DNA from: Scytonema millei VB511283
Lineage (GTDB): Bacteria; Cyanobacteriota; Cyanobacteriia; Cyanobacteriales; Chroococcidiopsidaceae
DNA: 64,000 bases
Assembly (NCBI RefSeq): GCF_000817735.3
Contig: NZ_JTJC03000004.1
Location: forward strand, 248,001-312,000
Direction: 5' to 3'
Below, piece by piece: positions 23,879 through 35,322 of the stretch. Every line of letters starts with the position of its first letter. The stretch's first letter is position 1. The translations under genes were made by a program, and so were the position numbers. The notes beneath the pieces were generated by a model, which was not told the origin of the DNA, did no database searches, and saw only the letters and a program-made list of their open reading frames with translations.

Positions 23879-24511
23879 GTGGTTATTCGCGTTCGTCAAC
23901 ACGTCAATCCTTTAGCTAACAAGTATCAAACTCCGGTCAGTCCGCCAGAGTGGGATAAAATATTTGCTTTGCACGGTCAGCCTCTGCACCTAGATATTGG
24001 TTGCGGTAAAGGACGTTTTGTGTTAAAGATGGCGCAGCTAGAGTCTAGTTGGAATTTTCTCGGACTGGAAATTCGGGAACCGTTAGTAGAAGAGGCAAAT
24101 AAGTGGCGGGATGAATTGGGATTGACCAATCTGCATTACTTATTTTGTAATGTGAATAATTCGCTGTTACCTATTCTCAGTTCTTTACCAGAAGGAGTAT
24201 TGCAGCGCGTTACGATTCAGTTTCCCGATCCTTGGTTTAAAAATCGCCATGCGAAACGGCGAGTCGTACAACCGGAGCTGGTAGAAGAAATCGCCAAATA
24301 TCTCATTCCTGGGGGAATCGTATTTTTACAATCAGATGTTGAAGCGATCGCAGTAGAAATGCGCGATCGCTTTCTTGCCCATACTGCATTTCAGATCCAA
24401 AATCGAGAATGGTTGCCAGAAAGTCCCTTACCCGTGGCTACGGAAAGAGAAAAGTCTACTCTATCGCGTGGGGAACCCGTGTATCGGGTTTTATTCTCCA
24501 AACAAAGTTAA
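23879..24511 (+). CDS. trmB: tRNA (guanine-N7)-methyltransferase
   Basis: 210 aa. SAM-dependent m7G46 methylation of tRNA. Visible: [16 protein letters not shown] at the N-terminus, the SAM loop [15 protein letters not shown] at about 37-51, and the family block [22 protein letters not shown] start at GTG 23879 because family proteins begin with this RVRQHVNPL block; the 16 codons upstream are repeat sequence (CTACTTCCTACTCCC). The stop overlaps the convergent mannosyltransferase gene by 4 nt. Confidence 0.9.
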
Positions 24512-26016
24512 ACCCAAGAAGGCAACCACATCCGCCAGCGATAACTTTCAGGAGACAGCGGTAGACCTAAATAAAGCGGCAGCCAGAAGACAAAAGCCAG
24601 AAGAATCAGAAATATTGCCGTTATGCCTAACAGCCGTAGGTTTCTGTGGTAACTGCGCAACCATCGATCGACGATCCAAGCCAAGGCTAGTGTAGCAAAC
24701 ACCGAAGCACCCATGTAGTGGTACAAAAACGTGCAGCGCGTCACCCGCATCCACGGTAATAAATTTGCTAACCAATTTAGAGCAAAGTACAAATAGATCC
24801 CAATATTTTGAATTCCAGTATTTTGAAGTCTATTTTGAGCTTGAGAAGAATTACCAGTTACAAATACCTTAGCCAAGCCAAACGAAGCGATCGCGCTTTT
24901 AGCGACTACCCAAACAGCATACAAAATTGCAACAGCGGAGAACCACCACAAGATCGGATTTCCCATTGCGTGTACGTCGTAGATTACTTTTGCACTCGCT
25001 TCTGGTATGGATGGTCCGACGACTGGTACTGATTCGTCAAGAGAAATAGTAGTTTTGTAAAAATAGGCAACCGGACGCAACATTAACAACCAGGTGTACC
25101 AGCGAGAACAATATGGATGCACGTCTGCACCACTACCGATGCGTTGGTGATAAAACAAGATCTCGCGCTGCATTTCCCAAAAGTTAGGTGTGGGATTGAG
25201 CATGAGGTGAGGAATCCAACTGATACTGTAGATGGCAACGGGGATTACTCCCAGGTAAAAGGCTATTTCTATGAGAGTTGGTAGTTGGTAGTTGGTAGTT
25301 GGTAGTTGATTGTTGATTGTTAATTGTTGATTGTTACTCCTCTGCTTCCTTGTCTCCCTTGTCCGTTTGACAATCCAAGCTACGATCCAACACAAATATG
25401 CTCCTAATAAGAAGCCTAAGCCGTTCCATTTAATTGCTGCTGATGCACCGAAACCTGTTCCAGCTAGAGTAAGCCACAAGTAGCGCTTTTTTTTAGGGGC
25501 TTTCAATGCTATCAACAAAAACCAATGCCCCAGTAGCCCGAAGATGACTAAATATATATTGTTCAGAGCGTAGCGAGATTCAACTAGGAATAACCCATCC
25601 GCAGCGGCGAAGATAGCTGCAATTACAGCATAACTGCGGCGATCGCTCAATTGATAAGCAATGCCCCCGACGACTAGCGGCACGAACGAGCCTGTTAAAG
25701 CATTCAGCCAGCGATAACTCCAAGGAGAATGCAAAGAACCCGTCAGTCCGTTCGCTATATCTCGGTCGATCGGCATGTGACTGCCCAACCACATTGCGAT
25801 CGCGATAATGTATTGACTCAGTGGTGGATGGGCGTTAAAAAATTGCGTCTGCGTCAAATAATTGTTCGCAAATTTTGCATAATACACTTCATCGAAGACG
25901 AGTGTATTGAATCGACTCAATTGCCAAAACCGCAAGCTAGCGCTGAATGCAAACACTGCAACCATAGCGATCGCTAACCAGGGAAACGGACGCGGAAACT
26001 TTCTAGTAGAGGGCAT
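24508..26016 (-). CDS. Protein O-mannosyltransferase-like (PMT family)
   Basis: 502 aa, about 11 membrane segments. [14 protein letters not shown] at about residues 41-54 carries the catalytic acidic pair of PMT enzymes; [10 protein letters not shown] and the C-terminal region with [20 protein letters not shown] fit the PMT four-helix end. It should transfer mannose from a polyprenyl-phosphate donor to proteins at the outer membrane face. Residues about 217-247 ([16 protein letters not shown] and [11 protein letters not shown]) are encoded by TTGTCTCCCTTGTC and GTTGGTAGTTGGTAG type repeats, in frame, in a loop. ATG start. Confidence 0.8.
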
Positions 26017-26644
26017 ATGATGTCACTCAACTCAAAAGAGTTAGCACATGCTAAAACCAGTTTTCTATCTTAACGACCTAACTGGGCAATGGAGCCACTT
26101 CAAAGGTGATTAGACTTGCTTTTGCTAGTTTGTCACTCAATTCAGATTATTTAATGCAGCCCATCCATTTCTAGTTAAACATAAGCTAAACAAGTACTTT
26201 TGCCAGTAGTAGCGGCTCTCAGTTTAAAAATATTAATCAATAATGGATTGCTTCTGGTACGGCAAATCTAGTATAAATCTACGTGAGCTAAAAATATTGT
26301 TAATTTCAGTCTTCATTCTGTTCGCTCTCAAACACGCAAGCACGTAATCCCAAAACTGTTAAATACCCTGTTTCCAGAAAAGATCGCTCGCTGGCAAAGA
26401 CTAGACTATCTGTTGCTGTTAAAGCTCATTTAGGCTGAGAAACCTGCAAAATTCTGTCATGTTTCGTAGCAGCCAAGTTAAACGTCAGGCAAAAGACATG
26501 GCAGAGAGATTGCAGCAGAGCGAAAAATAACGAGTGCCGATCGAGTAGGTGACGTTATTAACTTGACCTAATGTATTAAATTAGTATAAATTTTATAACG
26601 CCAAGTAAAATAGACGAAAAATTCAGCTTTTGAAGCAAACCAGA
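26017..26644. other. 628-bp upstream region of the exopolysaccharide locus
   Basis: No gene. AT-rich, without the tandem repeats that fill most gaps here, which suggests it is functional DNA. It holds a good promoter at 26563-26590 overlapped by an inverted repeat at 26548-26568, and presumably the divergent promoter of the PMT gene at its left end. Confidence 0.5.
26548..26590 (+). promoter_or_regulatory. Promoter with overlapping inverted repeat
   Basis: TTGACC (26563-26568), 16 bp, TATAAA (26585-26590), about 55 bp before the first glycosyltransferase ATG. A 21-bp imperfect palindrome (GGTGACGTTA and TAACTTGACC around a central T; 8 of 10 pairs match) covers the -35 box, a usual position for a repressor site. 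Confidence 0.45.
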
Positions 26645-27874
26645 ATGCGAAAACCAGTTTTAACCATTTTTTATCAGTTTAATCCCTGGTTTCCCAGCAT
26701 AGGAGGCATTCAAACAGTCATTCGATACTTTATCAAATATGCTGCTAGCGAGTTTGATGTCAGAGTTGTAGGAACTTCAGATCGAGCTAATTTCTCTGCT
26801 CGAAAGTGGCAAGAAGCAGAGTTGGAGGGAAAAGCAATCCAGTTTTTCCCTCTGCTTACCGTAGATAATGATGATGTTAGAGGCTTGCTGCCGACCACGG
26901 TAAAATACACCGTAGCGTTATCGCAGCATAACTTCGCCTCAGATTTTATGCACTTTCATCGAATCGAACCAACGCTAGCCTCTCTGAATTGGCAGGGGGA
27001 TAAGACTCTTTTTATTCACAACGATATTCGCCAGCAAATGACTGCCAAGGATAACAAGAAGGCAATTTTATGGCGATATTTTCCCGCAGGCTATTTTGCG
27101 CTAGAAGGACTATTAATAAAGCAATTCGCCGAAATCTTATCGTGTAATACGGAATCAGTCAAGCTTTATCAACAGCGTTATGCTAAATTAAGCGAAAGAA
27201 TCAAATACATCAAAAATCCGGTAGATAATGGAGTATTTTATCCGCTTTCTCCCGAGCAACGAGAGGAAGGAAGACGCGCGTTAGCAGCGCGAATGGGAGT
27301 CTCTGACGATACTCGCTTTTTGTTGTTTGCCGGACGCTTGCATCCACAAAAAGATCCCGTCTTGCTGGTGCGATCGCTGTTTGCTATGCAACAGCCAAAC
27401 GTTCACCTCTTAATTGCTGGTGCGGGAGAACTAGCTGAGACGGTAAAAGCAGAGATTGCTCAATTAGATTTATCTCAGCAAGTGACTCTGTTAGGCGCGG
27501 TTCCACCAACTCAACTCGCAAAGCTACAACAAGTTTGTAGCACCTTTGTGTTAACGAGTGCTTACGAAGGCTTGCCGCTAGTGGCATTAGAAGCTTTAGC
27601 TTGCGGTACGCCAGTAGTCACTACAGATTGTGGAGAAACACCTAAATTACTGAATGCAGGTAGCGGTATCGTCTGTCAAGAGCGTACGCCAGAAGCGATC
27701 GCCTCTGCCATAAGTCAGATCCTTTTACGAGATACAAATTATACGATCGAAGCTTGCGTGCAGGCGGCTGCACCATACGGGGTGCGTCAAATTGTCAGGG
27801 ATGTGTATCAAAACATGTGGGTGCGCTGGGAACAGCGTCAGCTAGCATCTGGTGTGTCTACAAGTTATGTCTAG
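26645..27874 (+). CDS. Glycosyltransferase family 4
   Basis: 409 aa. GT-B fold: an N-terminal acceptor domain beginning KPVLTIFYQFNPWFPSIGGIQTVIR (the GG-I/V-E-like loop) and a C-terminal donor domain with FAGRLHPQKDP at about 232-242 and the EGLPLVALEALACGTPVVTTDCG nucleotide-sugar motif at about 305-328. No signal peptide, cytoplasmic or membrane-associated. I start at ATG 26645 instead of an upstream TTG at 26630. First gene of the exopolysaccharide locus and the one nearest the promoter. Confidence 0.85.
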   Translation: MRKPVLTIFYQFNPWFPSIGGIQTVIRYFIKYAASEFDVRVVGTSDRANFSARKWQEAELEGKAIQFFPLLTVDNDDVRGLLPTTVKYTVALSQHNFASDFMHFHRIEPTLASLNWQGDKTLFIHNDIRQQMTAKDNKKAILWRYFPAGYFALEGLLIKQFAEILSCNTESVKLYQQRYAKLSERIKYIKNPVDNGVFYPLSPEQREEGRRALAARMGVSDDTRFLLFAGRLHPQKDPVLLVRSLFAMQQPNVHLLIAGAGELAETVKAEIAQLDLSQQVTLLGAVPPTQLAKLQQVCSTFVLTSAYEGLPLVALEALACGTPVVTTDCGETPKLLNAGSGIVCQERTPEAIASAISQILLRDTNYTIEACVQAAAPYGVRQIVRDVYQNMWVRWEQRQLASGVSTSYV

Positions 27875-27953
27875 GTGGTAAACCTATAAATGAGGAAGTA
27901 TGACAGGGATAAGATGCGACCCGAATCAACTTGCTGCACCTGTGGCAAAAGAA

Positions 27954-28001
27954 GCGGTCTCCGATGCCAATCTAAAGACCGCTAGGCTCCCAAACACACG
28001 T
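27954..28001 (+). other. Structured element, copy 1 (possible leader RNA)
   Basis: Stem GCGGTCT/AGACCGC closes a 15-base loop containing GCCAATCTA, followed by the tail CCCAAACACACGT at 27989-28001. The same loop core and tail occur in copy 2 with a different stem. Confidence 0.5.
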
Positions 28002-28135
28002 GAACGTAGGAGTCCACTCTTATACTAGCCAACAAAATTTGCCTCGCCCATAGTTTCTCAGGGAAAGCTCAAGATTCAACAACCGCTAATTGGAACGAGT
28101 CAGGACAAAAAAGATCGACAAATTGAATTCAGCAA

Positions 28136-28191
28136 GCCAGCAGTCTTCTAAGCCAATCTAGAGACGACTGGCTTTATACCCAAACACACGT
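28136..28191 (+). other. Structured element, copy 2 (possible leader RNA)
   Basis: Stem GCCAG-CA-GTCT pairs with AGAC-GA-CTGGC (one 2x2 mismatch) around a 15-base loop with GCCAATCTA at the same position as in copy 1; tail CCCAAACACACGT at 28179-28191. The TAGATT just after the tail could pair with AATCTA of the loop (pseudoknot), which copy 1 lacks. It ends 22 nt before the downstream ATG. Confidence 0.5.
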
Positions 28192-28213
28192 AGATTTAAC
28201 AGACACACTTTGC

Positions 28214-29416
28214 ATGAGAATAGCCGTTATTGGTGCTAAAGGATTGCCCGCCAACCAGGGTGGTATTGAACATTACTGCCAGGAAATGTATCCCCGTATG
28301 GTGGAACGCAATCATTCCGTAGACCTGTTTGCCCGCTCCTCTTATCTAAATTCTTCCTGGCTGGAACAGTATAAATATAAAGGGGTGAGAGTCATTTCCT
28401 TGCCCTGTTTGCAGCTAAGAGGAGCAGATGCCTTTTTCACTTCCCTACTAGGGACGATCGCGGCAAGCGGTAATCAATACGACATCATTCATTTCCACGC
28501 CCTTGGACCTTCGGTATTTAGCTGGTTGCCGAAATTTGCCTCCACTGCCAAAGTCGTTGTCACCTGCCAGGGCTTAGACTGGCAGCGGGCAAAGTGGGGT
28601 AAAATCTCCAGCCGCATACTATATGCAGGTGAACGAGCCGCAGCACGATTTGCAGATGGAATTGTCGTCGTCTCTGACGAACTGCGCACCTATTTCAAAC
28701 AGACATACAATCGCGACACGGTTTACATCCCCAACGGACCCGCCAGATACGCTCCTACAGATGGTAGTTTTGCCTACGGTACTTCCTTAGGACTGACTCC
28801 AGGCAAATATATTACCTATGTCGGCAGACTCGTACCGGAAAAGCGTCCAGACTTGCTGATTCAAGCTTTCCAAAAGCTAAAGCCGCGTGACTGGAAACTC
28901 GTTCTCGTCGGCGGAACGAGCGATACTAATGCCTTTGCCACAGAGTTATCAGAACTCGCTAATAGCAACCCTAACATTGTCTTTACAGGAGAACTCCGGG
29001 GGCAAAAACTAGCAGAAATCGTGCGTGGTGCGGGATGTTTTACTCTCCCTTCCGATTTGGAAGGACTACCCCTAGCCATGCTAGAAGCCATGCAAGAAGG
29101 CGTACCAGTTGTCGCCAGCGATATTCCCGCCCACCAGCAATTAGTTGCTCAAGATCGGGGATTGCTGTTTGGGGCTGGCGACGTAACAGATTGCACCCAG
29201 ACTTTAGAGCGAGCGATCGCCAATCCCGAAGCACTGGCTGCAATGGCAAATCGAGCGCAAAAATACGTTCAACAGCACCATAACTGGGATGATATTACTA
29301 CTGAAACTCTGAACGTGTACAAAACACTTTATCAGACAACAACAATCCGCCCCACTGTCGCCAAGCAACTGGCTACTACCCCTCCCGTTCAAGCTTCAGA
29401 AAAAATAAGTCGCTAA
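28214..29416 (+). CDS. Glycosyltransferase (DUF1972/GT4 type)
   Basis: 400 aa. The N-terminus RIAVIGAKGLPANQGGIEHYCQEMYPRM is typical of the rhamnosyltransferase-like DUF1972 group found in capsule loci. The C-terminal GT4 donor domain shows YVGRLVPEKRPDLLIQAF at about 197-214 and DLEGLPLAMLEAMQEGVPVVASDIPAHQQL at about 281-310. Probably adds a sugar to a lipid-linked repeat unit in the cytoplasm. ATG start without a clear Shine-Dalgarno, directly after the tandem structured elements. Separated from the next gene by about 40 bp, so likely co-transcribed. Confidence 0.85.
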   Translation: MRIAVIGAKGLPANQGGIEHYCQEMYPRMVERNHSVDLFARSSYLNSSWLEQYKYKGVRVISLPCLQLRGADAFFTSLLGTIAASGNQYDIIHFHALGPSVFSWLPKFASTAKVVVTCQGLDWQRAKWGKISSRILYAGERAAARFADGIVVVSDELRTYFKQTYNRDTVYIPNGPARYAPTDGSFAYGTSLGLTPGKYITYVGRLVPEKRPDLLIQAFQKLKPRDWKLVLVGGTSDTNAFATELSELANSNPNIVFTGELRGQKLAEIVRGAGCFTLPSDLEGLPLAMLEAMQEGVPVVASDIPAHQQLVAQDRGLLFGAGDVTDCTQTLERAIANPEALAAMANRAQKYVQQHHNWDDITTETLNVYKTLYQTTTIRPTVAKQLATTPPVQASEKISR

Positions 29417-34311: not shown

Positions 34312-35322
34312 ACGTGAGTTCGACGGTGGGAGATGAGCCAAAAAGAAAAAAGAGACCTATGCTCAAAATACACAGCGCTCGGCCTCAGTTATGAATAGCA
34401 CCATTGTATCTCGCCTAGATGTGACGCAAATTTTTTGTGAGGTAGACGACTTCTATCAAACCTTTGAACGACATTGGCAGCAACAGATGCTATTGACGGC
34501 AAGTTGTGGAGAACGCTTGTGTCGCTCTCGTTTAAGTCTGAGTGAGGTGATGACGATAGTAATTGCTTTTCATGGCTCGGGATATCGTACTTTTAAAGAA
34601 TTCTACACGCTACAAGTCCTACCAGGCTGGCGTCAAGCTTTTCCTCATCTAGTCAGCTATACTCGTTTTGTCGAATTGATGCCTTGGTCGTTGATGCTGT
34701 TATGCTGCTTTGTACAGACCCGTAAGGGAGAAGTCACTGGCATTTCATTCATTGATTCAACTCCGATTGAGGTGTGTCATCCAAAACGTTCTAGAAGCCA
34801 TCGTGTGTTTGAAGGCATGGTGGGTTGGAGCAAAAATTCGGTCGGGTGGCACTATGGGTTTAAGCTGCACCTAATTATCAATGACCGAGGCGAGTTGCTA
34901 GCTTTTAAGCTGACCCCTGGCAATGTAGATGACCGCAAGCCTGTGCCGGACTTAACCCAAGACCTAATTGGTAAGCTATTTGGCGATCGTGGTTATATAT
35001 CTCAGGAATTGTTTGAGCAACTCTATCAGCAAGGCTTGGAGTTAATTACACGGCGTAAGAAGAAGATGAAGCAACAGTTGGTCAAGTTGATCGACAAAAT
35101 TCTCTTACGTAAGCGAGCCTTAATTGAAACAGTTTATGACCAACTGAAGAACATTTCTCAAATCGAGCATTCCCGACATAGAAGCATCTGGAATTTCCTG
35201 GTCAACTTGTTAGCTGGATTAACAGCTTATACTTATTTGCCCCGAAAACCTTCTCTCGATTTAGAACCCAAAGGCTTACCTGCTCTTCCTCCTGCTGTCT
35301 TTTAACCCCGTCGAACTCACGT
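34312..35322 (+). mobile_element. IS982-family insertion sequence, intact
   Basis: 1011 bp. The ends are inverted: ACGTGAGTTCGACGG at the left and CCGTCGAACTCACGT at the right (15 bp perfect). Both sides carry the 7-bp target duplication TAAAATG (34305-34311 and 35323-35329). One intact transposase gene. Perfect ends, exact duplication and an open frame point to a recent insertion. Confidence 0.92.
34391..35305 (+). CDS. IS982-family transposase
   Basis: 304 aa DDE transposase. An N-terminal region with RLSLSEVMTIVIAFHGSGYRTFKEFY, then the catalytic domain: FIDSTPIEVCH with the first Asp near 119, then the KLTPGNVDDRKPVPDL block and FGDRGYIS with the second Asp near 199, and the acidic residue of ALIETVYDQLKN near 257. 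Full length for the family, with no frameshift. ATG start 79 bp inside the left end. Confidence 0.92.
   Translation: MNSTIVSRLDVTQIFCEVDDFYQTFERHWQQQMLLTASCGERLCRSRLSLSEVMTIVIAFHGSGYRTFKEFYTLQVLPGWRQAFPHLVSYTRFVELMPWSLMLLCCFVQTRKGEVTGISFIDSTPIEVCHPKRSRSHRVFEGMVGWSKNSVGWHYGFKLHLIINDRGELLAFKLTPGNVDDRKPVPDLTQDLIGKLFGDRGYISQELFEQLYQQGLELITRRKKKMKQQLVKLIDKILLRKRALIETVYDQLKNISQIEHSRHRSIWNFLVNLLAGLTAYTYLPRKPSLDLEPKGLPALPPAVF

Follow-up and report, generated by a model that had tools for sequence, protein, structure and literature searches.

Is a hairpin-forming sequence that occurs twice between two glycosyltransferase genes of a cyanobacterial exopolysaccharide cluster a control element, and would it act as RNA or as DNA? 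We consider this question for Scytonema millei VB511283, in a window of 64,000 nucleotides (the whole stretch of DNA that was analysed), drawing on two further genomes of its genus and on collections beyond it. A first-pass annotation had taken the two hairpins for copies of a structured RNA element in an exopolysaccharide gene leader, possibly a riboswitch-like leader, an antitermination element or a protein-binding site.

A repeated unit between two glycosyltransferase genes

The unit, about 50 nt long, consists of a hairpin followed by CCCAAACACACGT and is present in two copies (27953-28001 and 28134-28191) within the 339-nt gap between two same-strand glycosyltransferase genes, termed GT1 and GT2 (Table 1). 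The repeat is real and far above chance: local alignment of copy 1 with copy 2 scores 56, whereas none of 1000 dinucleotide shuffles exceeds 31. The alignment has 6 gap columns and, over 48 aligned positions, 7 mismatches; a repeat search within the window returns two shared blocks, one of 27 nt with 81% identity and one of 13 nt with 100%. Much of the layout described in the first-pass annotation was borne out by measurement. The reported 182 nt between the hairpins is true of the stem starts, with the cores 186 nt apart; both copies have 15 nt from GTCT to AGAC and the common loop core GCCAATCTA at a matching loop position, the 13-nt tail is identical in the two, and the GT2 ATG, judged by eye, has no Shine-Dalgarno sequence. 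The suggested pairing of the copy 2 loop AATCTA with TAGATT stood in part: the complement is present after copy 2 and conserved in three genomes, but it accompanies copy 2 only, and six complementary bases over such a span are by our own estimate not rare.

The flanks of the copies are not significantly alike (120 of 1000 shuffles as good upstream, 892 of 1000 downstream), which speaks against a longer tandem duplication; the unit itself probably arose by an old local duplication. Each of the three genus genomes carries its two copies at a single place, as opposed to the many copies per genome of a dispersed repeat or mobile element.

Table 1. Features of the GT1-GT2 region, in window coordinates
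Feature	Position	Strand	Basis	Remarks
GT1, upstream glycosyltransferase gene	26630..27874	+	ORF from TTG; Glycos_transf_1	
Copy 1 hairpin: AGCGGTCT, 15-nt loop, AGACCGCT	27953..27983	+	sequence, fold	0 substitutions, 0 indels in three genomes
Copy 1 tail: CCCAAACACACGT	27989..28001	+	exact repeat	identical in three genomes
TATACT, possible -10 box	28021..28026	+	sequence	in 50-nt substitution-free run (28007-28056, one indel at start)
Copy 2 hairpin: AAGCCAG-CA-GTCT, 15-nt loop, AGAC-GA-CTGGCTT	28134..28174	+	sequence, fold	1 substitution, 2 indel events in three genomes
Copy 2 tail: CCCAAACACACGT	28179..28191	+	exact repeat	22 nt 5' of the ATG, as first noted (measured in all three genomes)
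TAGATT, complement of copy 2 loop AATCTA, possible pseudoknot	28191..28196	+	sequence	kept in three genomes
GT2, downstream glycosyltransferase gene, likely regulated gene	28214..29416	+	ORF; Glycos_transf_1 + DUF1972	

The true start of GT1 is probably the ATG at 26645, with matches in other genera mostly starting at residue 5 or 6. The listed GT2 start at 28214 is the first ATG, GTG or TTG of its frame, and by eye the two relatives also have no earlier such codon; the frame is open upstream through copy 2 for 29, 54 and 42 codons in the three genomes. Genes for Wzz/GNVR with a ParA-type ATPase, Wzy_C, a methyltransferase, a transposase, a second-type glycosyltransferase and Polysacc_synt follow in this order on the 3' side of GT2. 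Gene order was compared over 36 GT2 loci, namely 21 of 100 genomes (own included) with a match at E ≤ 1e-100 and 15 named loci, omitting L101, whose match lies at the locus edge. GT2 is immediately preceded by a GT1 homologue in all 35 remaining loci (3 of the genus and 32 others, with a partial match in L102), a count that covers the closest GT2 relatives and is silent on genomes without one. Given this adjacency, and with same-strand GT1 ending at 27874, the unit is intercistronic and not the operon leader that had been proposed. Within the genus the gap measures 339, 342 and 339 nt. Across the 32 other loci it ranges from -4 to 683 nt, with 17 loci at no more than 60 nt and two above the genus values; the genus gap is longer than usual, and its length is not unique.

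Several further features of the region deserve mention. Upstream of GT1, a promoter-like TTGACC plus TATAAA (26563-26600) is unchanged in the three genomes and is possibly the exopolysaccharide operon promoter; a promoter scan there stays within the shuffle spread (3 sites against 1.6, sd 1.3). Also 5' of GT1, the short direct repeat TGTCACTCAA occurs at two places (26021-26064 and the 26131-26153 region), and ATGCTAAAACCAGTTTT at 26048 resembles the GT1 start ATGCGAAAACCAGTTTT (26645-26661), as if a piece of that start had been duplicated upstream. A protein-O-mannosyltransferase-like gene (24508-26016, minus strand) points away from the operon, and a DDE transposase gene (DDE_Tnp_1_3, 34391-35305) lies inside the exopolysaccharide cluster. 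Two small ORFs over copy 1 are unsupported as genes: all between-genome differences in the 31-aa frame (27890) change an amino acid, and an indel extends the 42-aa frame (27900) to 53 aa in the relatives. Pairing of a 12-nt complement in the GT1 upstream region (26274-26285) with 28187-28198 was likewise rejected, as one change breaks the match in both relatives.

Stem register, fold and conservation of the copies

The first-pass annotation rested its case for selected RNA structure on stems that differ between the copies while pairing is kept. In register, the stems are AGCGGTCT/AGACCGCT in copy 1 and AGCAGTCT/AGACGACT in copy 2; six of eight pairs have the same letters in both, the other two fail to pair in copy 2, and no compensated pair is seen, so that the claim is not upheld. 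Copy 2 gains extra pairs at the stem base. One pair with a two-sided change appears in alignment A4 (MAFFT), and 244 of 500 shuffles are equally good; A4 has the left arm shifted in two copy-2 rows with an extra T, which makes the pairwise register the better evidence, and the covariance model used below (R1), being built on A4, shares this flaw. Given the shuffles and the broken pairs, covariation between copies or genomes is not supported as a mark of RNA selection. The lesson is that look-alike hairpins need not imply covariation: in register, the copies are one repeated sequence.

All four distinct copies are predicted hairpins, with z scores of -3.1, -4.5, -3.3 and -2.9 for tight cuts that were chosen to fit the hairpins and hence flatter these values. 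Copy 1 folds at -14.5 kcal/mol in its tight cut and has a z of -1.6 in a wider one; copy 2 folds at -18.1 kcal/mol, with a wider-cut z of -2.6. For the entire 376-nt region, predicted folding is on a par with shuffled sequence (z -0.95). Inner loop pairs predicted for copy 1 differ from those for copy 2, and in one relative a 3-nt deletion leaves copy 2 with an outer stem of five pairs instead of seven, one of the five being G-U. The distance from core to tail varies (9, 13 and 10 nt), whereas the predicted stem base lies 5, 4, 4 and 3 nt from the tail in the four distinct copies, the 3 nt belonging to the relative with the deletion; copy-to-copy spacing is 186 or 189 nt across the three genomes.

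The unit sits at the same place in two other genomes of the genus (n = 3 with its own). Among the 102 ungapped columns of the copies a single one is variable, against 18 of 234 in the remaining gap (one-sided Fisher p = 0.008). Outside the copies, the gap varies like GT2 third codon positions (32 of 400; p = 1.0), and the copies vary less than these (one-sided p = 0.004). This near absence of substitutions makes selection on the copies likely, on moderate evidence from three close genomes whose gaps differ pairwise by 2-5% substitutions. Four indel events fall within the gap, two of them inside copy 2. The longest substitution-free run, 62 nt, covers copy 1; further runs, at 28007-28056 (50 nt) and 28167-28213 (47 nt, only partly within copy 2), each contain an indel and indicate constraint outside the hairpins as well. 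The 50-nt run, 3' of copy 1, holds TATACT and is not explained by the hairpins. The first-pass annotation is supported in so far as it describes a conserved, duplicated, hairpin-forming element adjoining a polysaccharide gene.

Distribution outside the locus

The exact two-part pattern was found in 3 of 388 genomes of the order (own included), all from one of 149 genera and each with two copies. With the whole gap as query against 100 genomes (own included), 74 gave some match at E ≤ 1; full-length matches came only from its own genome, G001 and G002, and the next best match covered 29 nt (E 0.0014). The covariance model, applied to 60 genomes with stricter filters, scored the six known copies at 68-77 bits and the next best match at 23.1 bits. 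Matches at E ≤ 1 occurred in 18 of these 60 genomes, three being the genus and the other 15 reaching at most 23.1 bits. Neither the match in G036 (23.1 bits, E 0.0067) nor that in G012 (22.4 bits, E 0.011) was accepted as a homologue, both being about at chance level for 60 genomes; the latter lies inside a 290-codon same-strand open frame, presumably a zinc-peptidase gene. A tail-only match in the own genome (C6:34280, 18.7 bits, E 0.13) lies in a 671-codon frame (L124) and was also rejected. Over 33 loci around the orthologous gene (L101 without upstream DNA), the best score was 14.9 bits, from one of two matches in L048 (14.9 and 11.5 bits) that are too weak to count. The covariance search, which the first-pass annotation had advised, found no convincing homologues in either the 60 genomes or the 33 orthologous loci.

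At up to three mismatches, the 23-nt core recovered only the two copies in each of the three genus genomes. One-mismatch sites in these genomes, copies included, number 17 for the tail (17 for the reversed control) and 23 for the core (14 for its control); the 28 outside the copies (17 core, 11 tail) all lie within open frames of at least 127 codons, and some of the core sites recur in all three genomes. Genome and viral collections, from which records close to the window may be absent, gave no exact match, and a plasmid search by blastn returned a single weak, irrelevant match. Among the titles and abstract openings listed in literature searches, which included Chroococcidiopsis 5'-UTRs (where spellings with the prime sign may be missed) and small RNAs, none deals with the site, which is no proof of its absence from the literature. 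As the searches yielded no homologue beyond the genus and the three genomes hold no second site, no partner of the unit is indicated.

Weighing the readings

We favor, at a probability of roughly 40%, a genus-specific intercistronic cis-element that would bind a trans factor to set GT2 translation or mRNA stability. Starting from the observed repeat, hairpin potential, place and conservation in three genomes, we infer a GT1-GT2 transcript running through the unit, in which both copies would fold into hairpins, each with an unpaired, C/A-rich tail after it, and copy 2 would stand just 5' of the GT2 start codon, which lacks a Shine-Dalgarno sequence. The pair of copies would then bind a protein or small RNA, and the bound factor would control translation of GT2 or determine how stable the mRNA is from GT2 onward. 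Intercistronic stem-loops of the puf operon type set segmental mRNA stability; the likeness lies in stable hairpins between probably cotranscribed genes, whereas here conservation extends from the fold to the loop and tail sequence, and there are two units. The adjacency of GT1 and GT2 in all 35 loci, which fits cotranscription, and a gap free of plus-strand terminator-like sites count for such a cis-element. The missing covariation counts against it, as do the comparison of only three closely related genomes with constraint extending past the hairpins, the two of four indel events taken by copy 2 with its outer stem shortened in one relative, the unremarkable fold of the 376-nt region, and the lack of any homologue or second site that would point to a partner.

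An antitermination element or riboswitch-like leader of the exopolysaccharide operon, as first proposed, would suit the polysaccharide gene cluster around the unit and hairpins so close to a start codon. RfaH/ops and LoaP, systems of specialised NusG antitermination, offer a parallel in that they too involve short elements close to polysaccharide operons or other long ones, with a small hairpin in ops (PMC7819879). Here, however, the element is flanked by a gene on either side and does not precede the gene pair. Each of the three genus genomes has a single NusG match (PF02357; control found in 10 of 14 genomes), the Rho RNA-binding domain was found in 0 of 3 (control found in 9 of 14), and 27750-28300 contains no plus-strand terminator-like site, findings that disfavor antitermination. 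JUMPstart and EAR are polysaccharide-leader families in Rfam; no such family was matched in Rfam scans, which gave two tRNAs only for the window at gathering score and, in a lax scan of 27800-28350, two matches far below gathering scores. A riboswitch is further opposed by the lack of covariation and of recurrence in the 388-genome pattern, the 60-genome model and the 33 orthologous loci, and we regard any such leader as very improbable. Palindromic direct repeats are typical of operators, and a stronger if still doubtful reading is that the copies serve as two DNA operators, through which a transcription factor would control an internal promoter 5' of GT2. In copy 1, palindrome and tail shortly precede the conserved TATACT, as an activator site might, with copy 2 downstream of it; copy 1 and TATACT both fall in substitution-free runs, and the lack of covariation would be expected if DNA sequence instead of pairing is kept. 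Tandem operators of bacterial transcription factors share with this locus two near-identical palindromic sites 5' of a gene, but differ in that core-to-tail spacing here shifts by 1-4 nt, copy spacing is inconstant, and a consensus scan of 27750-28300 found no promoter, nor was a -35 box found for TATACT. At the corresponding offset from copy 2, no -10 box is seen by eye, and a regulon is not apparent, as the three genomes hold no other core site and the one-mismatch sites elsewhere sit inside open frames; a regulator with a single target may be compatible with this.

A decayed or neutral local repeat, left by an old duplication where the gap had lengthened and seemingly conserved mainly because only three close genomes were compared, would account for the low divergence, the absence of the element outside the genus and the indels within copy 2. 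We consider it rather unlikely, as the copies differ from each other at 7 of 48 positions plus gaps, yet each is nearly frozen between species, below the third-codon rate, and the units are alike while their flanks are not. The unit is probably a local control site for GT2 and the genes following it, and action at the RNA level is slightly favored over a DNA operator: a hairpin of variable length fits the variable core-to-tail and near-constant stem-base-to-tail distances slightly better than a rigid DNA site, and the constant 22 nt from tail to ATG adds to this tilt. The missing covariation and the substitution-free stretch around TATACT make the DNA reading still a plausible one. A more specific RNA version of the cis-element, in which a two-copy genus element (hairpin, fixed loop GCCAAUCUA, single-stranded CCCAAACACACGU) would gate glycosyltransferase translation through an RNA-binding factor, with copy 2 switching between hairpin and loop-tail pseudoknot, seems improbable.

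If functional, the intercistronic cis-element would be a compact control point for sugar-coat synthesis in what is presumably Chroococcidiopsis, a lineage that withstands desiccation very well.
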